NCBI GenBank assembly: GCA_026415975.1
Contig: JAOAFZ010000001.1
Location: 1-64,000 of the forward strand
Reading direction: 5' to 3'
Source: Patescibacteria group bacterium
GTDB taxonomy: Bacteria > Patescibacteriota > Microgenomatia > UBA1406 > GWC2-37-13
Length of the DNA stretch: 64,000 bases
This document shows, one piece after another, positions 43,930 to 59,541 of the stretch (the first letter of the stretch is position 1; the number at the start of each line of letters is the position of its first letter). The notes under the pieces were generated by a model, which saw only the letters and a list, made by a program, of their open reading frames with translations, had not been told where the DNA came from and did no database searches. A program made the translations under genes and the position numbers.

Positions 43930-43934
43930 AAAAA

Positions 43935-44052
43935 CCTGGCAACAACCTATTTTCCCCGTACCGCGATTTGCAGCGAGTATCGTCGGTGTGAAGTCGTTTC
44001 ACGGTCCTGTTCGGGATGGGAAGGGGTGTTACCGACTCACTAAGTCACCAGG
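43935..44052 (-). rRNA. rrf: 5S ribosomal RNA
   Basis: A 118-base 5S rRNA on the minus strand. The terminal helix CCTGG/CCAGG, the ACACCCCTTCCCATCCCGAACAGG region (loop B/C) and the GGTAC segment near the 3' end are diagnostic. It is not linked to 16S or 23S genes in this window. It has its own promoter upstream. Its 3' helix is directly followed by seven T on the minus strand, so the terminal stem itself can act with the T-run as terminator. Confidence 0.95.
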
Positions 44053-44120: not shown

Positions 44121-44126
44121 TATAAT
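44121..44126 (+). promoter_or_regulatory. -10 box of the PH-domain gene
   Basis: TATAAT, ten bases before the ATG at 44137. The box overlaps the in-frame ATG at 44125, so that earlier start is unlikely. Confidence 0.5.
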
Positions 44127-44136
44127 GAAGATAACT

Positions 44137-44700
44137 ATGGAAGATGAACTGCGGCAAAGTAGCAGATATATGAATGCACTCTGTGTGTACCCCCGAATAC
44201 GATTCGATATACAGCGGGAAAATGAGAAGGTCATACTTTTGATAAGAGAACATCCGGTTACACAGATTCCGTGGGTGCTCCAGTCAGTCGGGATGCTGCT
44301 AATACTGTTTCTGCTAAACCTTATTATTCCTGATATTTTTAATGTCTGGCAGGTTCTCTTCTTTAACCTTTTCTCCCTTGCAGCAATTGCTGCATTCATC
44401 TGGCTGAATTACTTACGTTGGAATTACCATGTGGGACTGATAACTAACGAGCGGATTCTTGATATTGATTTTAAGTCTGCCCTCTATAAGGAGGTATCGA
44501 TTGCGAAGCTCTCAAATGTCGAAGAGATTTCTTCTGCAAGTGCGGGCTATGCCGGTACGCTGTTTAACTATGGGGATATTAGTGTTATGACAGCCGGTGC
44601 TGATGTAAATATCGAGTTTCGGCATGCGCCGGATCCGTCATTTATCGTAAAACTTATCAATCGCCTCTCCCACGACAAGAATGGAAACAATAATAATTAA
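44137..44700 (+). CDS. bacterial PH-domain membrane protein
   Basis: 187 residues. Two membrane helices (about 50-95) are followed by a bPH-type domain (NYHVGLITNERILDIDFKSALYKEVSIAKLSNVEEISS). This arrangement is typical of the YdbS/bPH_2-like families. Function unknown. It is first in a compact plus-strand run: it overlaps the DUF5657-like gene by 20 bases, which leads to the PP2C-like and sigma genes. Confidence 0.8.
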   Translation: MEDELRQSSRYMNALCVYPRIRFDIQRENEKVILLIREHPVTQIPWVLQSVGMLLILFLLNLIIPDIFNVWQVLFFNLFSLAAIAAFIWLNYLRWNYHVGLITNERILDIDFKSALYKEVSIAKLSNVEEISSASAGYAGTLFNYGDISVMTAGADVNIEFRHAPDPSFIVKLINRLSHDKNGNNNN

Positions 44701-44935
44701 TCTGTTTGATGGATTAATGAATCTCTCTGATATTGAGATTATTTACTTTTTTTTCAAAGCATTTTCAGTTGTGTTTTCTCTCCTGTTTCTGGTGTACGCA
44801 GTGATTATGGTAAGGCAGACTGCGGTGCTTCGGGATACCTTATCCACGAGTAATGACGGTCTCTTTGCGTTTTTGAGTAATGTACAATTAATTGTAGCGG
44901 TGATTCTGATTCTCTATTCTCTGATATTGTTGTAA
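44681..44935 (+). CDS. small two-helix membrane protein, DUF5657-like
   Basis: 84 residues. Two hydrophobic segments (about 22-44 and 65-84) enclose a short polar loop (MVRQTAVLRDTLSTSNDG). The pattern is like DUF5657 proteins common in this radiation. It overlaps the upstream PH-domain gene and is three bases from the PP2C-like gene. Confidence 0.7.
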   Translation: METIIINLFDGLMNLSDIEIIYFFFKAFSVVFSLLFLVYAVIMVRQTAVLRDTLSTSNDGLFAFLSNVQLIVAVILILYSLILL

Positions 44936-44938
44936 CCT

Positions 44939-47065
44939 ATGATTCAAGCCCAAACAGCAGTCTTCACCGGTAAGGACCGTTCAAGAGTTTTCCGTGACTG
45001 CATCGCGGAGAAGACTTTTTTCCTTGTACTCGAGATATACGATGGGGTCACTAAATCAGAGGGTGCGCGGATAATGAAAGCATTGTCGGAAGCATACGCC
45101 GGTGTTAGTCCGCTGATGAAGATGGATCACTTCGAATCATGGTTGCAAGACGCCCTGTTAAACGCAGAAGCACCGGAGAGCTGTTCTGTTGCTGCAGGGA
45201 TCATCACCGGCAATATAATCTACATCAAGACTATTGGTGACGGTGAGATACACATGCGACGCGGAAAGAAATTCGTGCGGCTTATTCACGGTACAAAGGT
45301 GGCTTCCGGATACGTAAAACCTGATGATTTACTTGTTTTTACTACCGCTTCATTTCGCGCGCTGATCGAGGAAGAAGAGGCACTTAAGAAACCTCTCGAC
45401 ACTGGAACTCCCGAAAAAATAGTTGAAAAGCTCGAGGCATTTTACAGTGAAAAAGCGGATCATGCCACTATGGCTGTTTTTGCTAGAATGGTTGAAGTTG
45501 CAGAAGACGATTTAAAAACCGGTGAAAATACTACTGTTGTTCCTCTTACCCGTCCTGCGGATCCGCTAGCCCGGGCACATGTTGAAATGGTCGCCGTACC
45601 CGTAAGATCGGATGAAGACGGCAGTATACCGGTTAACTCAGTCTCCGGAAAGACAGCTCAGCCGCCGAACTATGCCCAGAACGCCACGCTTAATACGGAG
45701 ATCGATGATGAAACTGACAGCCAGGATTTTCCGTTGCCATCATCTTTGCCAACCACACCTTCCGCGACGTCTGCCAGTGCAGTCTCAGATACCGGGTTCG
45801 CGAGAGCAGGCGGAGGAAGGTCGGTATTGTCGAGCAGCAGATTATCAGGAAGTGGTATCCGGCCTTTGGACGAGAGTGAAGGCAGTGTGTTGCCACCGGA
45901 CTCCCCGCTCGGTAAACCAAATGCATCGACAGTTACTATCGCTGCTGCAAAGAAAGGCTTAGGCGGTAAAACCAGAAAAACGATTACGTTTGTTGTTGTA
46001 TTAGTAATTCTCGGTATATTCATATGGAGTGTTGTATTCGGTTATCAACGGCGTCAGGCAGCCGAAAACCGAAAGAAAATCGATGCGGTTTCCCAGCTGG
46101 TAGAGCAAAAAACCACTGAAGCAGAGGAGATCTCATTTTTGAATATGGAGCGTGCCCTGGCACTTTTAAATGAGTCAAAAGTAGCGGTTTCCTCGTTGAA
46201 AAAAGAGATAGGCAACGGGTATGACTCCGAGATCGGTTTACTGGAGCAGAAGATAACCGAAAAGGAAAATGCGATCGTTCAGAAAGAGGAGTCCGAGCCG
46301 GAGGAGTTTTATGATCTTGCCCTTGAGGATAAAAATGCAAAGGGCGATAGAATGTTTCTTGAGGGGGACAAGATTGCAATTCTGGATACTGTTGCCAAAA
46401 CTGTCTATAACTTTGATGCCGACCGGAAATCACTGAAAAGCAGTAAAAATGCAGTTGTAGGAACAGCAACGGAAGTTGGTCTCGTGAATGGTGCGATCTA
46501 TATTTTTGTACCTGACCAGGGCGTATTTGTTTTTGATGATGACACAAAAGTACGAAATGTCATAAAGAATGACCCTGAGTGGGGCAATATTACCGATATG
46601 GCCTTCTTCGGAGGTAATATATATCTCCTTGACTCCGGTAAAGGGGATGTCTATAAATATGTTTCGGCAGGGGTCGGGTACGGGAAAAAGTCTTCATATT
46701 TCACCGGAACCGCACCCGATATTTCCGGAGCCACCTCGCTCAAAATTGATGCTTCAGTGTATGTGAGCATGCCATCAAAAGTTTTGAAGTTTACGCGGGG
46801 GACAGCCGATGAGTTTCAAACCAGTTTTCCGACGAAACAGGTCGAAATTAATGGCGTATATACCGACGAAAATACAGAGTTTGTATATGTTTGGGATAAA
46901 AAAAATGCAACTATCTTCGTTCTTGATAAAAAAGGAGGGTATAATCGTCAAATCAAGTCACCTGCGCTTGCAAAAGCCAGCGACTTCTTGGTTTACAACG
47001 GACGGATACTCCTTCTGTCGGGTTCCAAGATCTATGCATTGACAGAGAAAGATTTAAAAGAATGA
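44939..47065 (+). CDS. PP2C-like protein with membrane helix and exterior beta-propeller-like domain
   Basis: 708 residues. The first 195 residues follow the PP2C fold plan (LEIYDGVTKSEGARIM in place of the DG motif, SCSVAAGIITGNIIYIKTIGDGEIHMRRG, DDLLVFTTASFRALI). Most metal-binding aspartates are missing, so phosphatase activity is doubtful. A Ser/Thr/Pro-rich linker (about 200-345), one membrane helix (about 352-372), a helical segment (about 375-450) and repeated beta-rich units (about 465-705) follow. It is directly upstream of an ECF-type sigma factor gene with a four-base overlap. A role in signal transfer across the membrane is possible. Confidence 0.7.
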   Translation: MIQAQTAVFTGKDRSRVFRDCIAEKTFFLVLEIYDGVTKSEGARIMKALSEAYAGVSPLMKMDHFESWLQDALLNAEAPESCSVAAGIITGNIIYIKTIGDGEIHMRRGKKFVRLIHGTKVASGYVKPDDLLVFTTASFRALIEEEEALKKPLDTGTPEKIVEKLEAFYSEKADHATMAVFARMVEVAEDDLKTGENTTVVPLTRPADPLARAHVEMVAVPVRSDEDGSIPVNSVSGKTAQPPNYAQNATLNTEIDDETDSQDFPLPSSLPTTPSATSASAVSDTGFARAGGGRSVLSSSRLSGSGIRPLDESEGSVLPPDSPLGKPNASTVTIAAAKKGLGGKTRKTITFVVVLVILGIFIWSVVFGYQRRQAAENRKKIDAVSQLVEQKTTEAEEISFLNMERALALLNESKVAVSSLKKEIGNGYDSEIGLLEQKITEKENAIVQKEESEPEEFYDLALEDKNAKGDRMFLEGDKIAILDTVAKTVYNFDADRKSLKSSKNAVVGTATEVGLVNGAIYIFVPDQGVFVFDDDTKVRNVIKNDPEWGNITDMAFFGGNIYLLDSGKGDVYKYVSAGVGYGKKSSYFTGTAPDISGATSLKIDASVYVSMPSKVLKFTRGTADEFQTSFPTKQVEINGVYTDENTEFVYVWDKKNATIFVLDKKGGYNRQIKSPALAKASDFLVYNGRILLLSGSKIYALTEKDLKE

Positions 47066-47616
47066 TTGATATCAACGACGAAAAGTCACTGGTAAAACGA
47101 ATACTTGCTAAAGACGAGCAGGCGTTTCTCCTCTTTGTTCGCGCAAACGAGACAAATCTGTTTCACTATGTATACCGGCAGATTAATGACCGGGATGCTG
47201 CAGAGGAAATTGTTCAGGATGTTTTTGTGGATTTTCTGGAAGCACTGCGGAGCTTTCATTTTCAGTGCAGTTTGAAAACGTACCTGTTCTCAATTGCCAA
47301 GTTCAAGGTGATTGATGCTATTAGAAAGAAAAAAATAAAAAAAGTAATATTTTCCGCACTCCCGGATTATGTTGTTGAGGGGCTTTCGCCGGTAATAATA
47401 GATGATACACTTGAAAAGAAAGAGCTTGCAGACAAGATACACGCCGTTATTGCCGCTTTGCCGCATGAATATCAGGTTATATTACGACTGAAGTATGTAG
47501 ACGAGGTCCGGGTGAAGGCGATTGCCGAGAGGCTATCACTCACCTTTAAGGCAACAGAGAGCCTGTTATTCCGCGCCAGGAAGGCATTTATCAAGTTGTT
47601 TCACCAGACTGTATGA
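47062..47616 (+). CDS. ECF-type RNA polymerase sigma factor
   Basis: 184 residues with region 2 (FHYVYRQINDRDAAEEIVQDVFVDFLEAL ... KTYLFSIAKFKVIDAIRKK) and region 4 (LPHEYQVILRLKYVDEVRVKAIAERLSLTFKATESLLFRARKAF). It lacks regions 1 and 3, as ECF sigma factors do. It overlaps the PP2C-like gene upstream and, by an ATGA, a small membrane-protein gene downstream that could be its anti-sigma factor. Its target promoters are unknown. Confidence 0.92.
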   Translation: MIDINDEKSLVKRILAKDEQAFLLFVRANETNLFHYVYRQINDRDAAEEIVQDVFVDFLEALRSFHFQCSLKTYLFSIAKFKVIDAIRKKKIKKVIFSALPDYVVEGLSPVIIDDTLEKKELADKIHAVIAALPHEYQVILRLKYVDEVRVKAIAERLSLTFKATESLLFRARKAFIKLFHQTV

Positions 47617-47858
47617 ACAATGCCGCGACACACAATCCGAAGAACTGGCGGAGCCGGATGGACGATATCTTAAGTCTGGAGCCGAACGACCTCATGTTTC
47701 AGCCTCTCACAACAGCGTATAAGCTGGTTACCCGCCGGCTGAAGGTGTGGCCGTTTCTGTATATTATTCCGCTTTCTTTTGCTGCCGCTGCACTGCTTTA
47801 TGCGACATTCGGGTCCAGTGTGGTAAAGCTCACCAGTCTCCTGCAGTATGGATTTTAG
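47613..47858 (+). CDS. small one-helix membrane protein after the sigma factor (possible anti-sigma)
   Basis: 81 residues. The first 45 residues are soluble and charged and the rest contains one clear helix (VWPFLYIIPLSFAAAALLYATFG). Position (ATGA overlap with an ECF sigma gene) and layout suggest an anti-sigma factor. I see no ZAS motif (HxxxCxxC), so this is only positional. Confidence 0.5.
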   Translation: MNNAATHNPKNWRSRMDDILSLEPNDLMFQPLTTAYKLVTRRLKVWPFLYIIPLSFAAAALLYATFGSSVVKLTSLLQYGF

Positions 47859-48459
47859 CAGGGCTTTTACTTCCATACTTGCTTCTGTAATTATTGTAGC
47901 TAGGCGAAGCGTGGCACTTATCTTTTATCCGTATAAGACGATGCGTGAAATCGCTCGCGAAGATGATTTTTTACAGATAGGAATACTATTCACGATTATT
48001 TTGATTTACTATCTTGGTGTTAACACTATACGGGATACTGCCTGGCACCCGTTAATTCAGTTTCTCTTCGTCGGTATTAATTATACCGGTACTATTTTTT
48101 TCACCTACATTTTTGCACAAATACATCGTACCGGAGCTTCTTTACGTCCGTACTTTTTTCTGTTTTCATACGCTATGATTCCAACAATTATCTGGTTTTA
48201 TATGAATTCACTCTTATATGTTGCCCTGCCTCCGCCACGAAACATTACTCTCACCGGCAAAGTTTTTAGTCTGGTTTTTATTACTCTGTCGGTTAGTCTA
48301 CTTACATGGAAGATCTTACTGTGGTATTTGGCAGTCCGTTATGCTACCCGGCTTAAGTTTTATGATATTCTTTTGATTGGAGTGCTGTTTTTTGCATTCC
48401 TCCTCCCCTATGCATTGCTATTGTATAATCTCTCGTTATTCCGGATTCCATTTATATAA
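47848..48459 (+). CDS. five- or six-helix membrane protein, Yip1-like
   Basis: 203 residues with five or six hydrophobic segments. The start (FYPYKTMREIAREDDFLQIGILF) resembles bacterial Yip1/YIPF-domain proteins. It overlaps the preceding small gene by 11 bases, so it belongs to the sigma-factor operon. Function unknown. Confidence 0.6.
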   Translation: MDFSRAFTSILASVIIVARRSVALIFYPYKTMREIAREDDFLQIGILFTIILIYYLGVNTIRDTAWHPLIQFLFVGINYTGTIFFTYIFAQIHRTGASLRPYFFLFSYAMIPTIIWFYMNSLLYVALPPPRNITLTGKVFSLVFITLSVSLLTWKILLWYLAVRYATRLKFYDILLIGVLFFAFLLPYALLLYNLSLFRIPFI

Positions 48460-48462
48460 GTT
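48457..48462 (+). promoter_or_regulatory. possible -10 box of the mevalonate operon
   Basis: TAAGTT, six bases before the ATG at 48469, overlapping the end of the upstream gene. A weak match; read-through from the sigma operon is the alternative. Confidence 0.3.
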
Positions 48463-48468
48463 ATATAG

Positions 48469-49647
48469 ATGGATGTCCTGAAGCATTCCCTTAAGCGTGA
48501 TTTTCTTTCCGCTTCCGACCAATACTGCATGACTCTCCGATCTCTTAATCCTGTATCCCGACGTGAGTATCTTTGTACTGAGCTGGGGGTTTCATTACCT
48601 GCAATCGAAAGGGCCCTTGCTGATACTGAAGATAGTGTCAGAATAGAAAATTTGGTTGGCGCAGTATCGATCCCGCTGGGAGTTGCCGGACCGGTTCAAA
48701 TTCATGGTGAATCTGTGTCAGGCAAACGATTTGTTCCCCTTGCAACAACCGAGGGTGCCCTGGTTGCATCGGTTAATCGTGGTTGTAAGGCGATCACAGA
48801 TTCCGGTGGCGTGTTTACTGCCTCTGATGATACCGGCATGACCCGGGGACCGGTTTTTGTTACTGCATCACTTGCAGACAGCCGCAAACTGGAAGCTTGG
48901 CTAGCCAGGAATGAGAACCTGATCCGGGAAGCGGCTGAATCGACGTCTGCCCACCTTTCCTATGTCTCGATGCAGGTACGTGCTCTCGCACGCTCAGTCT
49001 ACGTCAGATTCGTATTCCGGACCGGGCAGGCAATGGGGATGAACATGGTAACCTTAGCAACTCAAAAAATTGTTGAACTAGTGGAGGACAAGACGAACGC
49101 ACGATGTGTAGCAGTTGCAGGTAACTATGACATCGACAAAAAGCCGGCCTGGCTCAATGTTATTGAAAACAGGGGAAAAAGAGTCCGTGCGGAAGCGGTG
49201 ATTCATTCTACTGTCATTTCATCTGTTCTAAAGACTTCTGCATCGGCAATCAACGAGACCTGGGTAGAAAAATGTGTACAGGGATCGTATCTTGCCGGAT
49301 CACTTGGCTTTAACTGTCAATTTGCAAATATCGTTGCCGCAGTTTTTGCTGCCACTGGACAGGATCTTGCTCACGTGGTAGAGGGCAGTGCCGGCATCAC
49401 GACAGTTCAGGTCCTTGAGGGTGGAGATCTGTATTGTGCAGTCTATCTTCCGGCGGTGCTTACCGCAACAGTCGGCGGAGGAACAAAATACAAGACTCAG
49501 CAGGAGGCACATGCCATTCTTGGCAATCCAGATGCATCCGGACTTGCGGAAATTATCGGAGCTGCTGTGCTTGCAGGTGAGTTGTCATTGCTTGCATCGT
49601 TATCAGTGCATACCCTTGCTCGGTCGCACCGGGAGTTAGGCAGGTAA
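48469..49647 (+). CDS. hydroxymethylglutaryl-CoA reductase, class I
   Basis: 392 residues. It reduces HMG-CoA to mevalonate with NADPH and commits carbon to isoprenoids. Catalytic Glu95 (TTEGALVAS), a Lys in YDIDKKPAW (224 or 225), Asp299 (GQDLAHVVEGS) and His387 (near the C-terminus) are present. Sequence style (EGALVASVNRGCKA, GMNMV) is that of class I, as in archaea and eukaryotes. No membrane anchor. It heads a seven-gene operon and its stop is two bases before the HMG-CoA synthase ATG. Confidence 0.95.
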   Translation: MDVLKHSLKRDFLSASDQYCMTLRSLNPVSRREYLCTELGVSLPAIERALADTEDSVRIENLVGAVSIPLGVAGPVQIHGESVSGKRFVPLATTEGALVASVNRGCKAITDSGGVFTASDDTGMTRGPVFVTASLADSRKLEAWLARNENLIREAAESTSAHLSYVSMQVRALARSVYVRFVFRTGQAMGMNMVTLATQKIVELVEDKTNARCVAVAGNYDIDKKPAWLNVIENRGKRVRAEAVIHSTVISSVLKTSASAINETWVEKCVQGSYLAGSLGFNCQFANIVAAVFAATGQDLAHVVEGSAGITTVQVLEGGDLYCAVYLPAVLTATVGGGTKYKTQQEAHAILGNPDASGLAEIIGAAVLAGELSLLASLSVHTLARSHRELGR

Positions 49648-49649
49648 TT

Positions 49650-50669
49650 ATGGCAGGCATCATATCCTACGGATTTTATATACCCAGATCACGTATCCTG
49701 GTTCAAGAGATCGCCCGTCATCATCGGAAAAATGCGAATGACATAATCAGTTCACTGGGTGTATTTTCGAAGACAGTTGCAGCCCGTGACGAAGATACCG
49801 CTACGCTAGCACTCGAAGCAGCAACGATGGCGCTCGGAAAGGGAGATCCGACACTGATCGATGCAGTGTATGCCGGATCAGAGACTCACCCGTACGCAGT
49901 AAAACCCACTGCGACCATCGTTGCCGAATGGCTGGGAATCGGCAACGAGTATGCGGCATTCGATACGCAGTTTGCTTGCAAAGCAGCAACAGGAGCGCTT
50001 ATTGCCGCATTCGGTCAGGTGAAATCAGGTGATATCAAGCAAGCACTGATAATCGGAGCCGATAAAGCAACGGGAAAGCCCGGAGATGCGCTTGAGTATA
50101 CGGCAGCCTCGGCAGCAGTTGCTTTGATTATTGGCAATCAGGATACCATCCTTGATCTTGAGGGAAGCTACTCGTTTACTTCTGACACTCCGGATTTCTG
50201 GCGTCGGCACGGGGTAAAGTACCCGTCTCACGGAGGCCGGTTTACCGGAAAACCAGCGTATTTTACTCATGTAGCGGGAGCAGTGAACGGCTTGCTTGCT
50301 AAACTGGGCCGGAAGCCCGATGATTTTGACCACGTTGCATTCCATTCGCCAAACGGCAGATTCCCGCGCGAAGCTGCAACTGCGCTCAACTTTTCTCAGG
50401 CACAACTGGAGAACTCGCTGGTTGTTACAGAACTTGGTAATTCGTATGCAGCCTGTTCTTTGATGGCCTTAACTGCAGTTCTTGATGTTGCAGAGCCAGG
50501 TCAGAGAATCCTCCTGGTATCATATGGGTCAGGAGCAGGCTCAGACGCGTTTTCTTTTACGGTAACCGGGCGGCTTCCCGCAATGAGACACAATCTGCGC
50601 AAGAAAATGAAAAATTATGAAATCATAGACTATGGCACATACCTGCGCCAGTTACATCTTATTGTATGA
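49650..50669 (+). CDS. hydroxymethylglutaryl-CoA synthase, archaeal type
   Basis: 339 residues. It condenses acetyl-CoA and acetoacetyl-CoA. Nucleophile Cys110 (TQFACKAATG), the Glu of GSETHPYAVKP (about 78) and His232 (VAFHSPNGRFP) are seen. Short length and the GSETHPYAVKPT motif mark the archaeal-type synthase. It overlaps the thiolase gene by four bases. In archaea this enzyme, a thiolase and a DUF35 protein form one complex that channels acetoacetyl-CoA, and the same three genes are adjacent here. Confidence 0.95.
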   Translation: MAGIISYGFYIPRSRILVQEIARHHRKNANDIISSLGVFSKTVAARDEDTATLALEAATMALGKGDPTLIDAVYAGSETHPYAVKPTATIVAEWLGIGNEYAAFDTQFACKAATGALIAAFGQVKSGDIKQALIIGADKATGKPGDALEYTAASAAVALIIGNQDTILDLEGSYSFTSDTPDFWRRHGVKYPSHGGRFTGKPAYFTHVAGAVNGLLAKLGRKPDDFDHVAFHSPNGRFPREAATALNFSQAQLENSLVVTELGNSYAACSLMALTAVLDVAEPGQRILLVSYGSGAGSDAFSFTVTGRLPAMRHNLRKKMKNYEIIDYGTYLRQLHLIV

Positions 50670-51826
50670 GCAATAAATACGTTATCGGTTATAGCACGAC
50701 CAAATTCGGAGAACTCTGGGACTATTCGCTCTATGATCTGGTACAGACGGTAACCGGTTCTGTCCTTGAAAAGACAAAGTTAGAGGCTGCTCAGGTTGAT
50801 GCTGTTTTCTATGGAAACATGATGGCCGGGATCATAGAGAATAACCTGCATTCGGGTGCAAAACTTGCTGAACTGCTCGGAACTCATGTTCCTGTGTATC
50901 GTACTGAAAGTGCGTGTGCTTCAGGAGGTATGGCTTTTCACTTGGCGACAATGTACCTTGATGCCCATCCTGATAGTACGGTGCTTGTCATTGGTGCCGA
51001 GAAAATGACTGATGTATCTCCACCCGATGTTACAAGCGCACTCCAGGCTGCCGCTTCCGGTGAAGAGCAGCTTGCAGGGCTGACATTTCCCGGACTGTAC
51101 GCAATGCTTGCCCGCATGTATATGGAAACCTACAACTATACGGAAGAACACCTTGCTCATGTCCCGGTGAAGAATCATTTTCATGCGGTCAGAAATCCGT
51201 ACGCCCAATTCCGACGGGAGATTACAATAAATCAGGTTCTCAAAAGCCCCTATATTGCCACTCCCCTGAAAGTACTTGATAGTTCGCCCATATCGGATGG
51301 TGCGGCAGCAGTTTTGCTAACTAATAGCCCAAATATCCGTAAGCGCGTCGCATATTCAGTTCGGGTACTTGCATCAGAGGTCGCAACCGATACAATTTCT
51401 ATCAAACACCGCCGACGAATGGATACCCTGCAAGCGAGTGTCGTTGCGAGTAATAAAGCATATGCAGCTTGTGGGATAACGGCGAAAGAAATATCCGTTG
51501 CAGAAGTGCATGACTGTTTTTCGATTGCGGAACTGTTGGCAATGGAGGATCTCGGTTTTTGGGCGAAAGGCGAAGCCGGTAGCCGGATAGTTACCGGTGA
51601 GACGCGTCTTGATGCGGGGGGTAGTCTGGTGGTCAATGCTTCAGGCGGTTTGAAAGCCTCCGGACATCCGGTGGGTGCAACCGGAATAAAACAAATCGGA
51701 GAGCTGTTTCTGCAGTTAACCGGACAAGCAGATAGCAGACAGGTTGCAAAAGCCCGTTACGGCCTTGCACAGAATGTCGGAGGTTCGGGAGGAACTGCTG
51801 TGGTTACTATTCTTGGTCAGGTTTAA
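50666..51826 (+). CDS. acetoacetyl-CoA thiolase, archaeal type
   Basis: 386 residues. It joins two acetyl-CoA to acetoacetyl-CoA. Nucleophile Cys84 (ESACASGG), the EVHDCFSIAE segment and GHPVGATG are visible. The HDCF and GHPVGATG pattern suits the archaeal/SCP-x-like thiolases that partner with DUF35. It is between HMG-CoA synthase (four-base overlap) and the DUF35 gene (one base apart). Confidence 0.94.
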   Translation: MSNKYVIGYSTTKFGELWDYSLYDLVQTVTGSVLEKTKLEAAQVDAVFYGNMMAGIIENNLHSGAKLAELLGTHVPVYRTESACASGGMAFHLATMYLDAHPDSTVLVIGAEKMTDVSPPDVTSALQAAASGEEQLAGLTFPGLYAMLARMYMETYNYTEEHLAHVPVKNHFHAVRNPYAQFRREITINQVLKSPYIATPLKVLDSSPISDGAAAVLLTNSPNIRKRVAYSVRVLASEVATDTISIKHRRRMDTLQASVVASNKAYAACGITAKEISVAEVHDCFSIAELLAMEDLGFWAKGEAGSRIVTGETRLDAGGSLVVNASGGLKASGHPVGATGIKQIGELFLQLTGQADSRQVAKARYGLAQNVGGSGGTAVVTILGQV

Positions 51827-51827
51827 C

Positions 51828-52139
51828 ATGAACAATCCTATCCGTAACTGGCGTCGTCAGAAAAAAATACACCAGTTCCGCAACCGCATCGGTACGGTTG
51901 AGACGTGGACAGAGATTATTGCACCCCCAGCGCAGTTTGCAGGTGAGGCACCATACGTTGTCGCTCTGGTACGCATGGATGATGGCGGATTTCAGTATGG
52001 AATGATCACAGATATTAACTCGGAAGATATTGTAAAAGGTATGAAGGTTCGTGCTACCGTCCGTGTGGTCTCGACCGGAGCAGCCGCCGAAGATATAATC
52101 ACCTACGGTCTCAAGTTTGTTCCGGTAGACCCAGTATGA
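51828..52139 (+). CDS. DUF35 OB-fold scaffold protein of the thiolase-HMG-CoA synthase complex
   Basis: 103 residues from the ATG at 51828, one base after the thiolase stop. The OB-fold part (APYVVALVRMDDGGFQYGMITDI ... KVRATVRVV) fits DUF35. The zinc ribbon (four cysteines) usual before the OB fold is absent: the N-terminal segment is only NPIRNWRRQKKIHQFRNRIG with no cysteine. In archaea DUF35 holds the shared CoA site of the complex. Overlaps the mevalonate kinase gene by four bases. Confidence 0.85.
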   Translation: MNNPIRNWRRQKKIHQFRNRIGTVETWTEIIAPPAQFAGEAPYVVALVRMDDGGFQYGMITDINSEDIVKGMKVRATVRVVSTGAAAEDIITYGLKFVPVDPV

Positions 52140-53083
52140 CAGAGGTTACGTATGCCGCACCCGGGAAGGTTATCCTTGCCGGTGAGCATGCGGTTGTTTA
52201 TGGAAAGCCGGCGTTATTGTCGGCAATCGGTAGCTACTGTTATGTTACGGTAGCTTCAGGTTCTCCTGATAAGCCGGTTCCCGACTATATTGAAACTGTT
52301 GCCGGAATAGTAGAGTCATATCTCAATGCGCAGGAAAGCGGCTTTCGAGCGAAACCTTTTCGGATCAGTGTAACCCTTGATTTTCCGATGGGAAGAGGGC
52401 TCGGATCCTCTGCAGCTTTTGCGGTTGCGGCTGTTGCAGCCCTTCTTCATTTCCATACCGGAACAGAACCTGCAAAAGAAACGATCAATACACTAGCCTA
52501 TCAGGCAGAGAAAAAGTTTCACGGGAAACCCTCAGGTGCTGATAATACTGCCTGTTGTTACGGGGGGCTTATTTACTATCGTAAGGAATTTGAATTCTTG
52601 AAAACGATTTCTGCACTCAATGCAAAATTACCGAGAGTCTTCGAAGAAAAATTACTTCTGATTGACACCGGCAAGCCGGTCGAAACTACAGCTGAAATGG
52701 TCCAAAACGTCGCGGAGGCGTATAACCGGAACTCTGCTACAACCGAAACTATTATGAGCGCGATAGAAAAACTTACGAAACGAACTGTTGTTTCTGTGGT
52801 AACAGAAAACCTTAACCTGTTTACCCGTTGTCTGCATGATACTCAGGAAGAACTCCAACGACTGGGAATCGTGTCAGAAAAAACAGCGAACCTTATAAGC
52901 GAATTTGCGGAGTTTGGAACCGGCAAAGTGACCGGTGCCGGTGGCCTCCGGGAAGGTTCAGGCTACATCCTTTTTTTGGCAAAGGATCGGAGTGCTCTCG
53001 AAAAAGAGTTAACGCGCCGTGGTATTCCCTTTATTCCATTTACCCAGGATTTCCATGGAGTTCACTGTATCAAGCCCGTCTAA
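52136..53083 (+). CDS. mvk: mevalonate kinase
   Basis: 315 residues, GHMP kinase. Motifs: APGKVILAGEHAVVYGKPAL near the N-terminus, the phosphate loop MGRGLGSSAAF (about 84-94), and TGAGGLREGSGYILF near the C-terminus. The GKPSGADNTACCYGG segment fits mevalonate kinase rather than galactokinase. The product is mevalonate 5-phosphate. Its 3' end overlaps the decarboxylase gene by 29 bases. Confidence 0.93.
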   Translation: MTEVTYAAPGKVILAGEHAVVYGKPALLSAIGSYCYVTVASGSPDKPVPDYIETVAGIVESYLNAQESGFRAKPFRISVTLDFPMGRGLGSSAAFAVAAVAALLHFHTGTEPAKETINTLAYQAEKKFHGKPSGADNTACCYGGLIYYRKEFEFLKTISALNAKLPRVFEEKLLLIDTGKPVETTAEMVQNVAEAYNRNSATTETIMSAIEKLTKRTVVSVVTENLNLFTRCLHDTQEELQRLGIVSEKTANLISEFAEFGTGKVTGAGGLREGSGYILFLAKDRSALEKELTRRGIPFIPFTQDFHGVHCIKPV

Positions 53084-54047
53084 TATTGCGTTCATAAAGT
53101 ACTGGGGCCAGCGCGACTCTGATCTTGTGCTGCCGATTCATGATTCATTTTCCATGAATCTGTCCGCCTGTACTACCGAGATTATCGCAGAATTGGTCGA
53201 TAATCCTGCAGTGCAGGAAATGACTATTCGGGAATATGGCTCTTCGGAATACCTGCCTGCAACCGGGTCTGAACTGGCGAAGTTTTGTACATTTTATGAG
53301 CGCGCGCGCCTTTTTCTCAAAAGCAATCGTCAATTCGGTTTCAGGTTGCGGACACGGAATACCTTTCCCAAAAAGGCGGGCATTGCCTCATCAGCATCTT
53401 TTTTTTCGGCTGCTGCTCTTGTGCTTGCCCGGGGATTTGAAGTAGAGCTTGATATCCGGCAACTCTCTATTCTTGCGCGGCTTTCCGGTTCCGGGTCCGC
53501 ATGCCGATCAATTCCGGACGGATTTGTCTGGTGGCATGCTGGATCCAGCTCTGAAACTTCATATGCTGAACAAATCGCAGCACCGGAATACTGGCAGATT
53601 GCAGATGTGGTTGTGGTGGTATCTACCGGAGAAAAAGTCGTATCTTCGCAACGAGGCCATGCCGGTGCAGCGAGTAGTCCCTACTTTACCTCGCGCATCG
53701 CTGATGTTACGCGTGTTGCGGTAGAGATGCGTGCGGCCTTTGAAAGGAAGGATTTTACGCAGTTCGGTACCGCGCTTGAAAAAGAATGTTTTAATTTTCA
53801 TTCGATTCTCATGACTCAATCACCGCCGCTCGTTTTCTGGTCGGAGCGAACCATTGCTGTGATTCATGAAGCTCATGCGCTTCGCCGCAAAGGAATCGAG
53901 GTGTATCTGACCATTGATGCAGGTGAAAATGTCCATCTTATCTGTGAGGCCGCATCTGTTCCGGCGGTTTGTAAGCGAATAGCTACCTTATCCGGAGTAC
54001 GGGAAACAATTGTAAATTACCCGGCAATCGGGAGCAGACTCCTATGA
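53055..54047 (+). CDS. mvaD: mevalonate (di)phosphate decarboxylase
   Basis: 330 residues from the ATG at 53055, the start that gives the family's N-terminus (VSSPSNIAFIKYWG). The frame can extend 12 codons upstream inside mvk. SGSACRSIPDGFVWW and the TIDAGENVH segment with the catalytic aspartate are intact. The conserved Lys after KYWG (KYWGKRD) is Gln here (KYWGQRD). No phosphomevalonate kinase gene is present and isopentenyl phosphate kinase follows, so the real substrate may be mevalonate 5-phosphate, giving isopentenyl phosphate. That is a context-based inference. Confidence 0.88.
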   Translation: MEFTVSSPSNIAFIKYWGQRDSDLVLPIHDSFSMNLSACTTEIIAELVDNPAVQEMTIREYGSSEYLPATGSELAKFCTFYERARLFLKSNRQFGFRLRTRNTFPKKAGIASSASFFSAAALVLARGFEVELDIRQLSILARLSGSGSACRSIPDGFVWWHAGSSSETSYAEQIAAPEYWQIADVVVVVSTGEKVVSSQRGHAGAASSPYFTSRIADVTRVAVEMRAAFERKDFTQFGTALEKECFNFHSILMTQSPPLVFWSERTIAVIHEAHALRRKGIEVYLTIDAGENVHLICEAASVPAVCKRIATLSGVRETIVNYPAIGSRLL

Positions 54048-54859
54048 GATCATCAAGGAGGGCTACACCAGTTACTTTGCTGAAATTTGGCGGGAGTCTG
54101 ATAACAGAAAAAACCAGAGCAATGACACCGCGTGCGGCGATAATTATGTCATTAGCACTACAGATAGCAAAAATTCGTGAAGCAAGACCGTTATTGCAGC
54201 TCGTTATTGGAAACGGTGCCGGTTCTTTCGGTCATTTTCAGGTGCTGCAGCACGGACTGGACAAAGGCATGCAAAAAAAAACCCAGCGAATCGGGTTTGC
54301 TGAAGTACGTGATTCTACCGCTGTTCTGAACCGTCTGGTTGTCCGGAGCCTGATAGATGCCGGGGTCCCGGCAATTGCAGTCTCTCCGCCTGTTGATTTC
54401 GGGACTGCTGATCCGGAGCGAAAAGGATGGCCTGAAGTTGTAGCCGCTTCATTGAAGGCCGGTCTGGTGCCGGTTGTCTATGGAGATATCGTGCTTGATA
54501 GTCGCTCCGGCTGCCGGATTATTTCCACTGAACAGCTTTTTGAGCGTTTACTCGATACACTTCCCGTTACCGGGTATGTACCCGATAGGATAATTCACCT
54601 TGGCCGGGTAGCTGGGGTGCTTGACAGTGCGGGTACGGTGATTCCCGAGATAACTCCCGATACCTGGCATAGTGTGCGCAGTTTCCTAACAGACATTGAG
54701 GGTTTTGATGTGACTGGCGGCATGAAACATAAAATAGAGTCGGCATTAGAGGCTGTTTCCAGCGGAGTAACCACTATAATTGCTAGTGGAGAGTCTGACA
54801 ACATCATCGAGCAAGTACTTGGAAACGGGGTATTAAGTGGAACCGTTATCCGGAGTTAA
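54044..54859 (+). CDS. ipk: isopentenyl phosphate kinase
   Basis: 271 residues of the amino-acid kinase fold. Lys14 (LLKFGGSLI), the catalytic His64 in GNGAGSFGHF and the DVTGGMKHKIE segment near the end identify IPK rather than acetylglutamate or uridylate kinase. It phosphorylates isopentenyl phosphate to isopentenyl diphosphate, the last step of archaeal-type mevalonate pathways. It overlaps the decarboxylase gene by four bases and closes the operon. No IPP isomerase is in the window. Confidence 0.94.
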   Translation: MRSSRRATPVTLLKFGGSLITEKTRAMTPRAAIIMSLALQIAKIREARPLLQLVIGNGAGSFGHFQVLQHGLDKGMQKKTQRIGFAEVRDSTAVLNRLVVRSLIDAGVPAIAVSPPVDFGTADPERKGWPEVVAASLKAGLVPVVYGDIVLDSRSGCRIISTEQLFERLLDTLPVTGYVPDRIIHLGRVAGVLDSAGTVIPEITPDTWHSVRSFLTDIEGFDVTGGMKHKIESALEAVSSGVTTIIASGESDNIIEQVLGNGVLSGTVIRS

Positions 54860-55692: not shown

Positions 55693-55736
55693 GTTCAAAT
55701 GATTTTGTCTGTCAATAAGACTACTGTATTACATCT

Positions 55737-56423
55737 ATGGCAGCACCATCTCATGTAGCAATCATTCCTGACGGTAACCGCCGGTGGGCAAGAAAGCATA
55801 ATCTGCCGGAGTTTGAGGGACATCGTATTTCTGCTGAAAAAATACTCCCCAGCATCATTGACTCTCTTATGGCAGAAGGAGTAGAGTACTTTACCTTCTG
55901 GGCACTTTCTACAGAAAATGTAACAAGACGCTCTCCCCGGGAGTATGCAAATCTGGTTAATCTTATGCGCATGTTTTTGCGCAAACGGACCCACGAACTC
56001 AATAAAAAGAATATTCGCATGAAGATAATCGGTGACGTAACAATTTTCCCGGACGATATTCGCAAGCTGATTGATGATGCTATCGAGAAAACTAAAAATA
56101 ATACTGGGATGACTGTAATATTCGGGATCAACTATGGGGGTCGTGATGAAATACTCAGGGCAATCCGTAAACTTACTGCAGGTAATACAACTGCGGAAAT
56201 AACCTGCGAAAAATTTCGGGAGTATCTTGACACGAAAGATGTTCCTGACCCTGATTTAATTATCCGTACCGGAGGAGAGCACCGTATCAGCGGATTTATG
56301 CTGTGGCAGTCCGAATATGCAGAATATGCTTTTATGGATAAACTCTTTCCCGAAATTACCGAAGCGGACTGTAAAGGAGTAATTAAAAACTTTCTGAGTC
56401 GCGAAAGGAGATACGGTAAATAA
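55737..56423 (+). CDS. uppS: undecaprenyl diphosphate synthase (cis-prenyltransferase)
   Basis: 228 residues. It extends farnesyl diphosphate with isopentenyl diphosphate to make the C55 carrier lipid of wall and glycan synthesis. The catalytic motif HVAIIPDGNRRWARK, ALSTENVTRRSPRE and the IRTGGEHRISGFMLWQSEYAE region are diagnostic. It uses the product of the nearby mevalonate operon. Divergent from the VirB2-like pair. A TACTGT box lies nine bases before the ATG. Confidence 0.95.
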   Translation: MAAPSHVAIIPDGNRRWARKHNLPEFEGHRISAEKILPSIIDSLMAEGVEYFTFWALSTENVTRRSPREYANLVNLMRMFLRKRTHELNKKNIRMKIIGDVTIFPDDIRKLIDDAIEKTKNNTGMTVIFGINYGGRDEILRAIRKLTAGNTTAEITCEKFREYLDTKDVPDPDLIIRTGGEHRISGFMLWQSEYAEYAFMDKLFPEITEADCKGVIKNFLSRERRYGK

Positions 56424-56706: not shown

Positions 56707-57750
56707 ATGTTCAATCCCAACTACGTAATTACGCATCGGATGCTCGTTGATATATCGCGTATCCAGGCTGTAGAAGAGTTGATTCGAAATGCCCCAATCC
56801 TTCCCCTGTGGGAAAAGAAGTTCAAAGAAGATGCAATTGTCCGTGCAGTCTACCATGGGACGCATCTGGAAGGAAATATGCTTAAGAAAGATGAAGCCCA
56901 TGACGTTTTGCTTGGAAAAGATGTTATTGCCCGGCCGCGCGATATACAGGAGGTAATCAATTACCGGCGAGTGATCGATTATATTGATGAAGAAGCAAAA
57001 AAACAAATCGGAAAGATTACGGAGCAAATTATAAAGAAGCTGCACCGGATCATCACTGATTCCATTTTACCTCCTGATGAACTGGGGGAGTATCGTCGAA
57101 AGCAGGTGGTAATCCGTAACTCTGAAACCGGGGAAGTTACATTCCGTCCACCCCCTGCGATTGAGGTGCCTTTTCTGATGCGTGAGTTTGTATATTGGCT
57201 CAATCGCTATGGAGCGGATGAGATTCATCCGATAATTAAAGCGGGAATTGCCCATCATGAACTCGTCCGCATTCATCCCTTTATTGACGGGAATGGCCGG
57301 GTTGCACGGACACTCTCTACGCTTATCATGTTCATAGGCGGATATGACATTCGACGCTTTTTCTCGCTGGAAGAATACTACGATAAAGATGCGTATTCTT
57401 ATTACGAAAACCTGCAGAAAGCTACAAACGGTGATCTGAATTCGTGGCTTGAATACTTTATTCGTGGGGCAGCTGTTGAATTTGAACGGGTAAAGGAAAA
57501 AATCATGCGGCTTTCCAAAGATGCCAAAATGAAGGAACGTTTCGGTGGTCAACAGATTTTCCTGACTGAAAGACAAATGAGAATTGTGGAGTATGTCCAG
57601 GAGATTGGCTATATTCAGAATCGCATGTTTGAGAGCGTCTTTCCCGATGTGTCCGAGGATACAGTACTCCGGGATATTCAGGATTTGGTCAAAAAGGGTA
57701 TCCTTAAAAAAATAGGCTCCACCAAATCAGCTCGGTATGTTATGGTTTAA
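56707..57750 (+). CDS. Fic-domain protein, probable AMP transferase, with C-terminal winged helix
   Basis: 347 residues. The Fic motif HPFIDGNGR (190-198) is complete, so AMPylation is possible. An N-terminal helix with HLEGN (53-57) resembles the inhibitory motif of class II Fic proteins, whose Glu blocks ATP placement. The last 75 residues (TERQMRIVEYVQEIGYIQNRMF ... LVKKGILKKIG) are a winged helix, a common companion in chromosomal Fic proteins. It ends three bases before the DNA ligase ATG. Target unknown. Confidence 0.9.
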   Translation: MFNPNYVITHRMLVDISRIQAVEELIRNAPILPLWEKKFKEDAIVRAVYHGTHLEGNMLKKDEAHDVLLGKDVIARPRDIQEVINYRRVIDYIDEEAKKQIGKITEQIIKKLHRIITDSILPPDELGEYRRKQVVIRNSETGEVTFRPPPAIEVPFLMREFVYWLNRYGADEIHPIIKAGIAHHELVRIHPFIDGNGRVARTLSTLIMFIGGYDIRRFFSLEEYYDKDAYSYYENLQKATNGDLNSWLEYFIRGAAVEFERVKEKIMRLSKDAKMKERFGGQQIFLTERQMRIVEYVQEIGYIQNRMFESVFPDVSEDTVLRDIQDLVKKGILKKIGSTKSARYVMV

Positions 57751-57753
57751 GCT

Positions 57754-59541
57754 ATGAAATTCTCTACACTGGCTAGGTACTTTGAACGGCTTGAACAAAC
57801 CACTTCCCGGTTGGAGATTACGCAAATACTCGCGGAGGCGTTCCAACATATGACGCCCGATGAGGTTGCTAAGACAGCGTATCTTCTCCAGGGACGGGTA
57901 GCTCCCCGATACGTGAAAGCTGACTTCGGCATGCAGGAGAAGATGGTGGTAAAGGCCGTGGTGACAGCACTTCAGCTCGATGAGACAGCGTTCAAACGAG
58001 ATCTCGCAACAAGCGGGGACCTGGGGACTACAGTAGAACGCTACCGGGCCGAGTCAATGACGCTCGAAACTAGTGATCCGGATATTGCCGACGTCTTTGC
58101 CGACCTTCAGGGGATCACGAAACAATCAGGTCCGGGATCTCAGGAAACCAAACAACGACTGCTTGCCCGTCTGGTGCTTGAAACTGACGCACGCTCAGCC
58201 CGGTACCTGGTACGAATTCCTACCGGAGTGCTGCGTCTGGGTCTTTCCGATATGACGATACTGGATGCATACTCCTGGATGCTTACCGGGGGAAAGTCTT
58301 TGCGGAAAAAAATTGAGGCGGCTTATCATGTTCGTCCGGATCTGGGTTTTATCGGAAAACGTTTGAAAGAGTCGGGAATAGAAGGTCTGGCCGATACAAA
58401 ACCGGAGCTCTTCACTCCGATCCTTATGATGCGTGCTGAACGGTTGTCGTCGGGAGAAGAGATTCTTGAGAAAATCGGCCCCTGTGCTATTGAACCAAAG
58501 TTTGACGGTATCCGTTTACAAGTGCATTACAGCAGGAAATCCGGCACTGCGCTGTTTACCCGAGGGTTGGAGAGTGTTGCAGATACATATCCTGATATTG
58601 TCGAAGCGGTAGCTCGCGAATTGGATGTAGATGATATTATCTTTGAAGGTGAAGCAATTGGGTATGTGCCTGAGACCAGAGAGTTTCTTCCCTTTCAAGA
58701 AACGGTACAGCGTAAGCGGAAACATAATGTAGCACAGAAGGCCAAGGAAATCCCGCTCAAGATGTTTGTATTCGAGCTGTTGTATTTAAATGGGGAAAGT
58801 TATATCGATCGTCCTTATGTTGAACGCCGTCAACGAATCAATGAGATCATGGGAAACGGGCATGATAAACATATCCGGAACACTATTATTCCTGCCGAGA
58901 GTATTGTTTTGAATGACGCCTCTGCCATCGAACATAAGTTCGAGGAGTCCGTAACAGAAGGGCTAGAGGGAATTATTGCGAAAAAGCTTGACGGGGTTTA
59001 CCAAGCAGGTGCCCGCGGGTATAACTGGGTTAAATTCAAGCGAAGCTATGCGACTTCTGCATTAAAAGACACCCTAGATTGTGTAGTAATGGGATACGAC
59101 TTCGGGAAGGGAAAACGTTCCGCGTTCGGAATCGGCGCGTTTCTGGTCGGAGTGTACGATGAAGCCGAAGATGTCTATAAAACTGTAGCCAAGATCGGAA
59201 CAGGATTGACTGACAATGAGTGGCGTGAATTAAAAGACCGTGCTGATCGCCTGAAAACGGAAACGAAACCGGCTCGATATGAAACCGACGACCGCATGTC
59301 AGTAGATGTCTGGATTAAACCTGAGATTGTTGTCGAGATACTAGCTGATGAGATAACCCGTTCACCAATGCATACCGCCGGACGCACTCTTAAACCATCA
59401 AAATCAGGGAAGGCGTTTGAGGTTGACGTACCGGGATATGCTCTCAGATTTCCCCGGCTTCAACGCTTCCGAGATGATAAACGGGTGGAAGATGTTACAA
59501 CCCTTGCGGAAATTCAGGCAATCTCCGGCATGGCAGTATAA
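57754..59541 (+). CDS. lig: ATP-dependent DNA ligase, archaeal type
   Basis: 595 residues. The N-terminal DNA-binding domain (about 1-215) precedes the adenylation domain with catalytic Lys249 in IEPKFDGIR. It then has FEGEAIGY, EGIIAKK and KFKR motifs and the C-terminal OB domain. Size and domain order match LigI/archaeal replicative ligases, not the small bacterial LigC/D types. Most bacteria use NAD-dependent LigA as main ligase; whether ligA also exists cannot be seen here. It is probably co-transcribed with the Fic gene. Confidence 0.94.
   Translation: MKFSTLARYFERLEQTTSRLEITQILAEAFQHMTPDEVAKTAYLLQGRVAPRYVKADFGMQEKMVVKAVVTALQLDETAFKRDLATSGDLGTTVERYRAESMTLETSDPDIADVFADLQGITKQSGPGSQETKQRLLARLVLETDARSARYLVRIPTGVLRLGLSDMTILDAYSWMLTGGKSLRKKIEAAYHVRPDLGFIGKRLKESGIEGLADTKPELFTPILMMRAERLSSGEEILEKIGPCAIEPKFDGIRLQVHYSRKSGTALFTRGLESVADTYPDIVEAVARELDVDDIIFEGEAIGYVPETREFLPFQETVQRKRKHNVAQKAKEIPLKMFVFELLYLNGESYIDRPYVERRQRINEIMGNGHDKHIRNTIIPAESIVLNDASAIEHKFEESVTEGLEGIIAKKLDGVYQAGARGYNWVKFKRSYATSALKDTLDCVVMGYDFGKGKRSAFGIGAFLVGVYDEAEDVYKTVAKIGTGLTDNEWRELKDRADRLKTETKPARYETDDRMSVDVWIKPEIVVEILADEITRSPMHTAGRTLKPSKSGKAFEVDVPGYALRFPRLQRFRDDKRVEDVTTLAEIQAISGMAV

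Follow-up and report, generated by a model that had tools for sequence, protein, structure and literature searches.

Which protein controls the extracytoplasmic function (ECF) sigma factor encoded at 47062-47616 of this stretch, and which genes does the sigma factor transcribe? The stretch, called the window here, comprises the first 64,000 nucleotides of contig JAOAFZ010000001.1 from a Patescibacteria group bacterium of the Microgenomates class (assembly GCA_026415975.1), with a source genome of 1.31 Mb in 10 contigs that is 97% complete. From 44125 to 54859 all genes lie on the same strand, and neighbouring listed open reading frames (ORFs) overlap or sit a few nucleotides apart. Their order is a PH-like protein, DUF5657, a PP2C/propeller protein, the ECF sigma factor, two membrane proteins named P81 and P203, and then isoprenoid genes up to isopentenyl phosphate kinase. 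A preliminary description of the locus had proposed the PP2C/propeller protein as the switch of the sigma factor. We instead consider it probable that sigma, P81 and P203 form a membrane-controlled ECF sigma switch of the Microgenomates class for isoprenoid and lipid-carrier supply and, as part of the same reading, that the PH-DUF5657-PP2C/propeller module came to lie upstream of this cassette in the window's family. How bacteria of the candidate phyla control transcription seems to be little known. The host group consists of tiny uncultivated bacteria in which the same cassette fronts two unrelated isoprenoid pathways, and the locus offers a complete testable circuit of sigma factor, likely membrane partners, predicted promoter and target operon.

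The sigma factor and its membrane partners

The sigma factor (184 aa, plus strand) matched Sigma70_r2 at residues 26-91 (2.9e-12) and Sigma70_r4_2 at residues 124-175 (3.9e-9) and no other sigma region, and it scored 75.6 bits against TIGR02937 (cut-off 42.9). With regions 2 and 4 and neither 1 nor 3 it belongs to the ECF type (sigma-70 group 4). Its gene is overlapped over 4 nt (ATGA) by the PP2C/propeller gene, so that the overlap and the ECF assignment of the preliminary description were both borne out. Matches to the sigma factor at E <= 1e-20 were found in 45 of 72 genomes of the window's family, and 77 of the 372 class genomes were counted as having a close sigma.

We compared gene order in 101 loci (the window and 100 fetched loci), which were picked as the best sigma or PP2C matches and are not a random sample; 52 close sigma loci were found among them. 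A homologue of P81 (47613-47858, plus strand; 81 aa, single-pass) was encoded directly 3' of sigma in 51 of the 52, and P203 (47848-48459, plus strand; 203 aa, multi-pass) was present in 49. The 81-residue membrane protein noted earlier behind the sigma gene thus proved to be a real and conserved partner. P81 was found in four of 239 genomes of the phylum, the window's among them. All four belong to the class, and as P81 was found in none of the genomes outside it, the cassette looks class-specific.

Members of the P81 family have about 77 residues. AlphaFold2 (AF2) placed helices at residues 10-20 and 30-45, a membrane helix at 47-66 and a last helix at 69-80, which ends in a conserved LLQYGF; the part presumed to be cytoplasmic has about 46 residues. 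A gene adjoining that of the sigma factor and a single membrane helix are features of membrane anti-sigma factors, and these sequence features make P81 a candidate anti-sigma factor. P203 has five hydrophobic segments and invariant PY..R, PT, PPPR, W and R positions. PF04893 (Yip1) was matched by 18 of 33 aligned P203 members (best 1.8e-11), the window protein alone giving no match, and by profile and multi-pass topology the family belongs to Yip1. We regard P203, again from its sequence, as a candidate sensor or co-regulator.

The roles of the two proteins might also be reversed, with P203 as the anti-sigma factor, as the multi-pass CarR is for CarQ, and P81 as an accessory subunit. There is a precedent in CarR, a six-helix membrane anti-sigma factor for a carotenoid ECF sigma (PMC8156234). 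In a mirror-tree analysis of 38 loci the partial correlation was 0.34 for sigma and P203 against 0.18 for sigma and P81. We also inspected eleven sigma loci that are more distant and have HMG-CoA reductase genes alongside; a P203-like ORF (E below 0.01), mostly short, was seen in seven of them. Four loci (L257, L258, L261, L262) have a short P203-like ORF behind sigma, and P81 was not found in them. On the other side, five loci (L174, L260, L268, L271, L272) have P81 without a clear P203, and it is P81 that adjoins sigma in nearly all close loci. Altogether we find this assignment of roles rather unlikely.

Isoprenoid genes behind the cassette

In the window the cassette is followed on the plus strand by genes for HMG-CoA reductase (48529-49647; TIGR00533, 1.6e-111; the listed ORF begins at 48469), an archaeal-type HMG-CoA synthase (49650-50669) and an acetyl-CoA acetyltransferase-type thiolase (50666-51826), the last two assigned by profile match. 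An OB-fold (ChsH2_C) protein beside the thiolase (51744-52139; PF01796, 1e-12) comes next, and then mevalonate kinase (52136-53083; TIGR00549), (di)phosphomevalonate decarboxylase (53019-54047; TIGR01240) and isopentenyl phosphate kinase (54044-54859; NF040647), each over the cut-off of its model. Further on lies uppS (55737-56423, plus strand; TIGR00055 over cut-off), encoding undecaprenyl pyrophosphate synthase for lipid-carrier synthesis.

In 51 of the 52 sigma loci, isoprenoid genes were found among the 11 predicted genes that come next, and they belong to more than one pathway. HMG-CoA reductase of the mevalonate pathway stands behind the cassette in 38 loci. In five (L138, L140, L142, L144, L168) it is the methylerythritol phosphate (MEP) pathway, with IspH, Dxr, YjbQ, IspD, IspF, IspE and IspG in several orders. 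Seven loci (L031, L153, L155, L156, L176, L177, L188) have UppS, isopentenyl phosphate kinase or mevalonate-kinase/decarboxylase-type genes, which in L188 start only at the sixth gene behind the cassette. Isopentenyl-diphosphate isomerase follows in L174, and L175 has no isoprenoid gene within 11 genes. On a tree of sigma and P203, at least four switches between MEP and the other states must be assumed; support of 0.96-0.999 separates L144 from L133/L134 and L138/L142 from L131, and other nodes are weak. Hybrid operons were seen in L144 (9300-16001; MEP genes, then mevalonate-kinase- and decarboxylase-like genes) and in L130 (1434-7036; upper mevalonate genes, then IspG), and these may be steps of a pathway swap.

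The association was also counted in the class sample, where the sigma, HMG-CoA reductase and PP2C searches were taken as covering the same 372 genomes. HMG-CoA reductase was found in 113 of them, the genome of the window among these, and at least 76 of these have a sigma match within 5 kb, a lower bound because places of sigma matches were noted down to E of about 9e-17. In those 76 the sigma gene lies upstream on the same strand in 71 and upstream on the other strand in five, four of them within 121 nt. With the strict sigma cut-off, HMG-CoA reductase was present in 63 of 77 sigma genomes versus 113 of 372 overall.

A promoter-like element before the first isoprenoid gene

In three loci of families other than the window's (L260, L267, L268), the sigma and HMG-CoA reductase genes are arranged head-to-head. 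Between the divergent genes lies CGAATGATTAT-N11-CGAC, oriented toward HMG-CoA reductase. This pattern, unchanged, reached at least 12/15 in 16 of 49 regions behind P203. The rate was 0.2% in shuffled sequences and 1.5% among 717 starts of other genes. It is the only test of a motif taken from other loci; the refined consensus, AATGATTT-N12/13-CGACTA, was fixed after its loci were seen, and the exact search given below includes loci already seen.

The refined element was counted at a score of at least 11/14 in loci of the window's family and order. It preceded HMG-CoA reductase in 19 of 23 cases, IspH in 4/5, UppS in 4/12 and unlabelled genes in 16/361; in L140, where the MEP genes start with YjbQ, it stands before that gene. 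An exact search of the 72 family genomes gave 26 matches, and the reversed control 5. Of the 26, 15 immediately precede HMG-CoA reductase and 2 IspH, and the genomes of all these 17 carry the sigma factor. In all 17 the ATG follows 13-17 nt past the C of CGAC, so that the mRNA would be nearly leaderless. Of 21 further HMG-CoA reductase loci, ten have an adjacent sigma, and five of these ten scored at least 11/14, including the three from which the motif was taken. The same score was seen in two of ten loci where no sigma was found, both of family f3, and in L264, where the contig ends; random windows attained it in 100 of 3000 cases. In the genomes of the two f3 loci (L256, L269) a sigma-family match was listed, which would mean control at a distance.

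In the window, a variant of the consensus, CGTGATTT-N12-CGACCA, forms a predicted sigma-dependent promoter at 48496-48521 (plus strand), with CGACCA starting 13 nt before the ATG at 48529. HMG-CoA reductase from this ATG has 372 aa, and in the longer version the TIGR00533 match starts only at residue 31; the position of the element suggests that the protein starts at 48529 and not at 48469. The best match in the window is a second predicted promoter, AATGATTT-N12-AGACTA, at 55698-55723 (plus strand; 1 mismatch in 13), and the uppS ATG lies 19 nt past the first base of AGACTA. A scan of the window's own genome with TGATTTN{12,13}CGAC gave 10 matches versus 5 in the control. The HMG-CoA reductase copy has a long ORF just after it and the match in L276 precedes an 87-aa ORF; no target was seen for the other matches to this loose pattern. 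The isoprenoid genes of the window can also be transcribed from further upstream, together with the upstream module.

Could the housekeeping polymerase or some other regulator use the element, and could inheritance alone account for the cassette lying next to the operon? Whole operons are commonly passed on together, two loci have the element without sigma in the fetched stretch, and it is missing in collinear families. Against this, the element is very rare elsewhere in the 72 genomes, and most of its exact matches stand at these genes. Its -10-like part has CGAC in place of TATAAT, the element is retained where a different pathway follows, and it was not seen in 8 of 10 HMG-CoA reductase loci with no cassette found. 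We consider such a reading improbable.

The regions 5' of sigma-first operons were also searched. No shared dyad rose above shuffles, and TATAAT-like boxes were seen by eye near the start codon of several of these operons. AGTGTAG was considered as an autoregulatory promoter (7 sequences versus 0.2 expected) and was dropped because its positions were inconsistent.

The PP2C/propeller protein and its module

The 708-aa protein encoded upstream of sigma (44939-47065, plus strand) was modelled with AF2 from an alignment of 44 sequences (mean pLDDT 81). The model shows a PP2C fold at residues 1-190 (44939-45508), a disordered linker at 194-344, a long membrane helix (about 45971-46132) and a six-bladed NHL propeller at 449-702 (46283-47044). 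The PP2C-like domain, membrane helix and beta-rich domain that had been read from the sequence are thus present in one chain. In searches with Foldseek and VIA-align the PP2C domain best matched PstP (2cm1, E 3e-9), and RsbX and SpoIIE were matched too, so that the unrelated fold which would have spoken against the preliminary description was not seen. The propeller matched Brat, Pizza and the PknD extracellular domain (Z 22-25 for the best). No Pfam PP2C model matched the 708-aa protein and the PP2C family profile found nothing significant among PDB sequences; the fold match comes from structure alone.

The domain had also been said to be without most metal aspartates, which was correct only in part. 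Of the three motif positions aligned, the SDG aspartate is lost in the window, where the motif reads TAS, but D35 and D174 are kept. Across the 44 aligned family members the residue is an aspartate at D35 in 10, at D174 in 31 and in the SDG column in 6, and none has the full SDG triad; among 41 wider relatives, D35 is kept in 2 and D174 in 12. The protein thus has the fold of the PP2C/PPM family without its full set of metal-binding aspartates, that of SDG being lost. Judged from these residues, the PP2C-like domain is likely a pseudophosphatase.

The PP2C protein family is widespread, with matches in 173 of 286 genomes of the phylum and 333 of 372 of the class. A search with the family alignment gave 58 named loci, of which 34 belong to Candidatus Roizmanbacteria (Microgenomates) and nine are short propeller matches in Chloroflexota-type genomes; the window protein as sole query found no relatives. 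Two genes precede it in the window, both on the plus strand. The first encodes a bacterial PH-like membrane protein (44125-44700; bPH_2 below cut-off, E 0.015), whose second in-frame ATG is the start at 44137 used in the preliminary description, and which recurs 5' of DUF5657-PP2C in class relatives. The second encodes a small DUF5657 membrane protein (44681-44935; PF18901, 3.9e-14). In class relatives outside the family, the PP2C gene often lies behind SpoIID/LytB (20 loci), PH-like and DUF5657 genes and ahead of smpB (21 loci). The PH-DUF5657-PP2C arrangement is not due to chance, because the same module recurs in relatives. It is a class-wide module of its own that does not depend on sigma, and among the matches listed it lies near a close sigma solely in the window's family, which comprises relatives of Ca. 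Roizmanbacteria.

The distance between the two genes bears directly on the proposed switch, in which the degenerate PP2C domain would hold sigma and the propeller outside the cell would trigger its release. Of the 72 family genomes, 45 have sigma, 66 have the PP2C gene and 44 have both. In these 44 the genes are at most 200 nt apart in 20, 0.2-5 kb apart in 16 and on different contigs in 8. This proximity within 5 kb in 36 of 44 genomes and the gene overlap in the window favour the PP2C protein, as does a mirror-tree analysis of 20 loci, in which its partial correlation with sigma (0.52) was the highest of all pairs with sigma. In addition, the anti-sigma factor Tt-TolB with its TolB domain (PMC3397946) provides a precedent.

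Wider comparison pointed the other way. The PP2C gene occurs without this sigma in 22 family genomes, and the PP2C protein is far more widespread in the class than the close sigma. Among the 24 fetched family loci that carry the PP2C gene as well as sigma, 10 have an opposite-strand gene between the two. For 51 close sigma genes outside the family a PP2C place was listed for 39, the other 12 having none because PP2C places were noted down to E of about 2e-29. Nineteen share a contig, and none of the 19 has the two genes within 5 kb. In 17 of these contigs sigma lies 9-17 kb upstream of the PP2C gene on the same strand, a shared neighbourhood that speaks for the proposed switch; with this spacing and none within 5 kb, the sigma and PP2C modules share a wider neighbourhood and are not one unit. 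The promoter-like element, at the refined score, preceded PH genes in 0/35 cases and PP2C genes in 2/34. On neighbourhood, and despite the contrary mirror-tree result, the PP2C protein was rejected as the conserved partner of sigma, and we regard its role as the switch as very improbable. The conserved gene neighbourhood proposed earlier as a check thus held for P81 and, in the case of PP2C, among the matches listed, in the window's family only.

The intervening genes encode about 280-304 aa and were seen in L144 (6968-7846), L130, L133, L135, L136, L137, L149, L150, L167 and L168; the one in L144, the sole one scanned, is DUF4340. On contig 4 of genome G545, filed in family f7, sigma and the PP2C gene lie 0.9 kb apart. 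This is probably contamination, because its matches have scores identical to those in G329, a genome of the window's family. The 77 sigma genomes include G545, and the 51 sigma genes do not.

Other features of the window

A 5S rRNA gene lies at 43934-44052 on the minus strand, directly 5' of the PH-like gene. Many class relatives have unlabelled opposite-strand ORF clusters at a similar place, which may be rRNA genes. Downstream of uppS are genes for a Fic-domain protein (56707-57750) and an ATP-dependent DNA ligase (57754-59541), a pair also found behind uppS in the family relative L031 (1402-4309). A large membrane protein of the Chlor_Arch_YYY type is encoded at 60026-62425.

Proposed mechanism

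At the level of sequence, the cassette is conserved, it is placed before non-homologous isoprenoid pathways and the element is found for the most part ahead of the leading isoprenoid gene. The presence of this cassette and element in front of either pathway argues for the product, and not one enzyme, as the thing under control. In the mechanism that we propose as the most economical one, P81, possibly together with the Yip1-like P203, would keep the ECF sigma factor at the membrane. A change in a membrane signal would free sigma, which would then transcribe from the promoters of the refined consensus and induce the synthesis of isoprenoid precursors, by the mevalonate pathway or, in other lineages, by MEP, along with uppS in some genomes. 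As an outcome, the supply of lipid carrier (polyprenyl phosphate) would be matched to demand. Three points in this are our inference: recognition of the element by this sigma, the role of P81 (or P203) as its anti-sigma factor, and a signal in the form of polyprenyl phosphate or a lipid related to it.

Several observations weigh against this mechanism. P81 was found in only 6 of the 11 distant sigma loci, no Pfam family matched more than two of 26 P81 members, none significantly and no anti-sigma family among them, and a fold search of P81 against the PDB gave no match. In the mirror-tree analysis of 20 loci the value for sigma and P81 was -0.12, well below that for sigma and PP2C; the test is weak for a protein of only 81 residues. 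Co-linearity among mevalonate users may be largely inheritance, and 37 of the 113 HMG-CoA reductase genomes have no sigma within 5 kb among the matches listed. The element was found before HMG-CoA reductase in 0 of 15 loci of collinear families (L169-L188), it was not reached in 5 of the 10 further loci with adjacent sigma, and L256 and L269 have it before HMG-CoA reductase although no sigma was found in the stretch fetched for them. Of the 26 exact matches, nine lie elsewhere and not at such a gene start. The HMG-CoA reductase element of the window has 2 mismatches and is weaker than the family consensus, and a scan of the window with up to 3 mismatches gave 16 matches versus 19.9 expected, that is, no overall enrichment. 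Finally, the element lies 5' of the sigma gene in 1 of 32 cases, and since it is rare there, the usual ECF autoregulation was not seen.

More tentatively, the switch might be a lipid-carrier homeostat. P81 and P203 would sense polyprenyl phosphate through the invariant arginines and PPPR loop of P203 and release sigma. The switch would have outlasted the pathway, with mevalonate and MEP genes swapped behind the cassette and promoter several times. We hold this version possible, with the balance tilted against it.

Comparison with known systems

A literature search, covering titles and the starts of abstracts with many subscription papers and bioRxiv outside its reach, gave no ECF sigma factor before isoprenoid operons in this group. 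The folds of the propeller and the PP2C-like domain are those of Mycobacterium tuberculosis PknD (an NHL sensor) and PstP (PP2C), but here both are in one chain and the phosphatase site is degraded. Tt-TolB of Thermoanaerobacter tengcongensis is an anti-sigma factor with a TolB-type domain, as the PP2C/propeller protein would need to be if it were the switch. Its 39 N-terminal residues suffice to bind its sigma Tt-RpoE1 (PMC3397946). Its gene follows that of sigma, whereas here the propeller gene precedes and includes a PP2C-fold domain; the counterpart of the short binding domain would be P81.

CarQ-CarR (carQRS) of Myxococcus xanthus similarly combines an ECF sigma and a multi-pass membrane anti-sigma factor with an isoprenoid-derived pathway. 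It differs in serving carotenoid genes under light and singlet oxygen, and CarQ activates its own operon (PMC8156234). CarR is a DUF1109 protein with six helices, whereas P203 is Yip1-like.

In function, the proposed switch would resemble Bacillus subtilis SigM with YhdL-YhdK. There, too, two genes for membrane proteins come after the gene of an ECF sigma factor, and the system has a link to isoprenoids. SigM responds to undecaprenyl phosphate (UndP) and controls ispD and ispF (PMC11081497). Its authors expect a modest isoprenoid effect there, whereas here the cassette heads the whole precursor operon. They also write that other bacteria likely have analogous systems of UndP distribution awaiting discovery (PMC11081497). 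If true, the lipid-carrier homeostat would be one of the analogous pathways of UndP homeostasis that these authors await.

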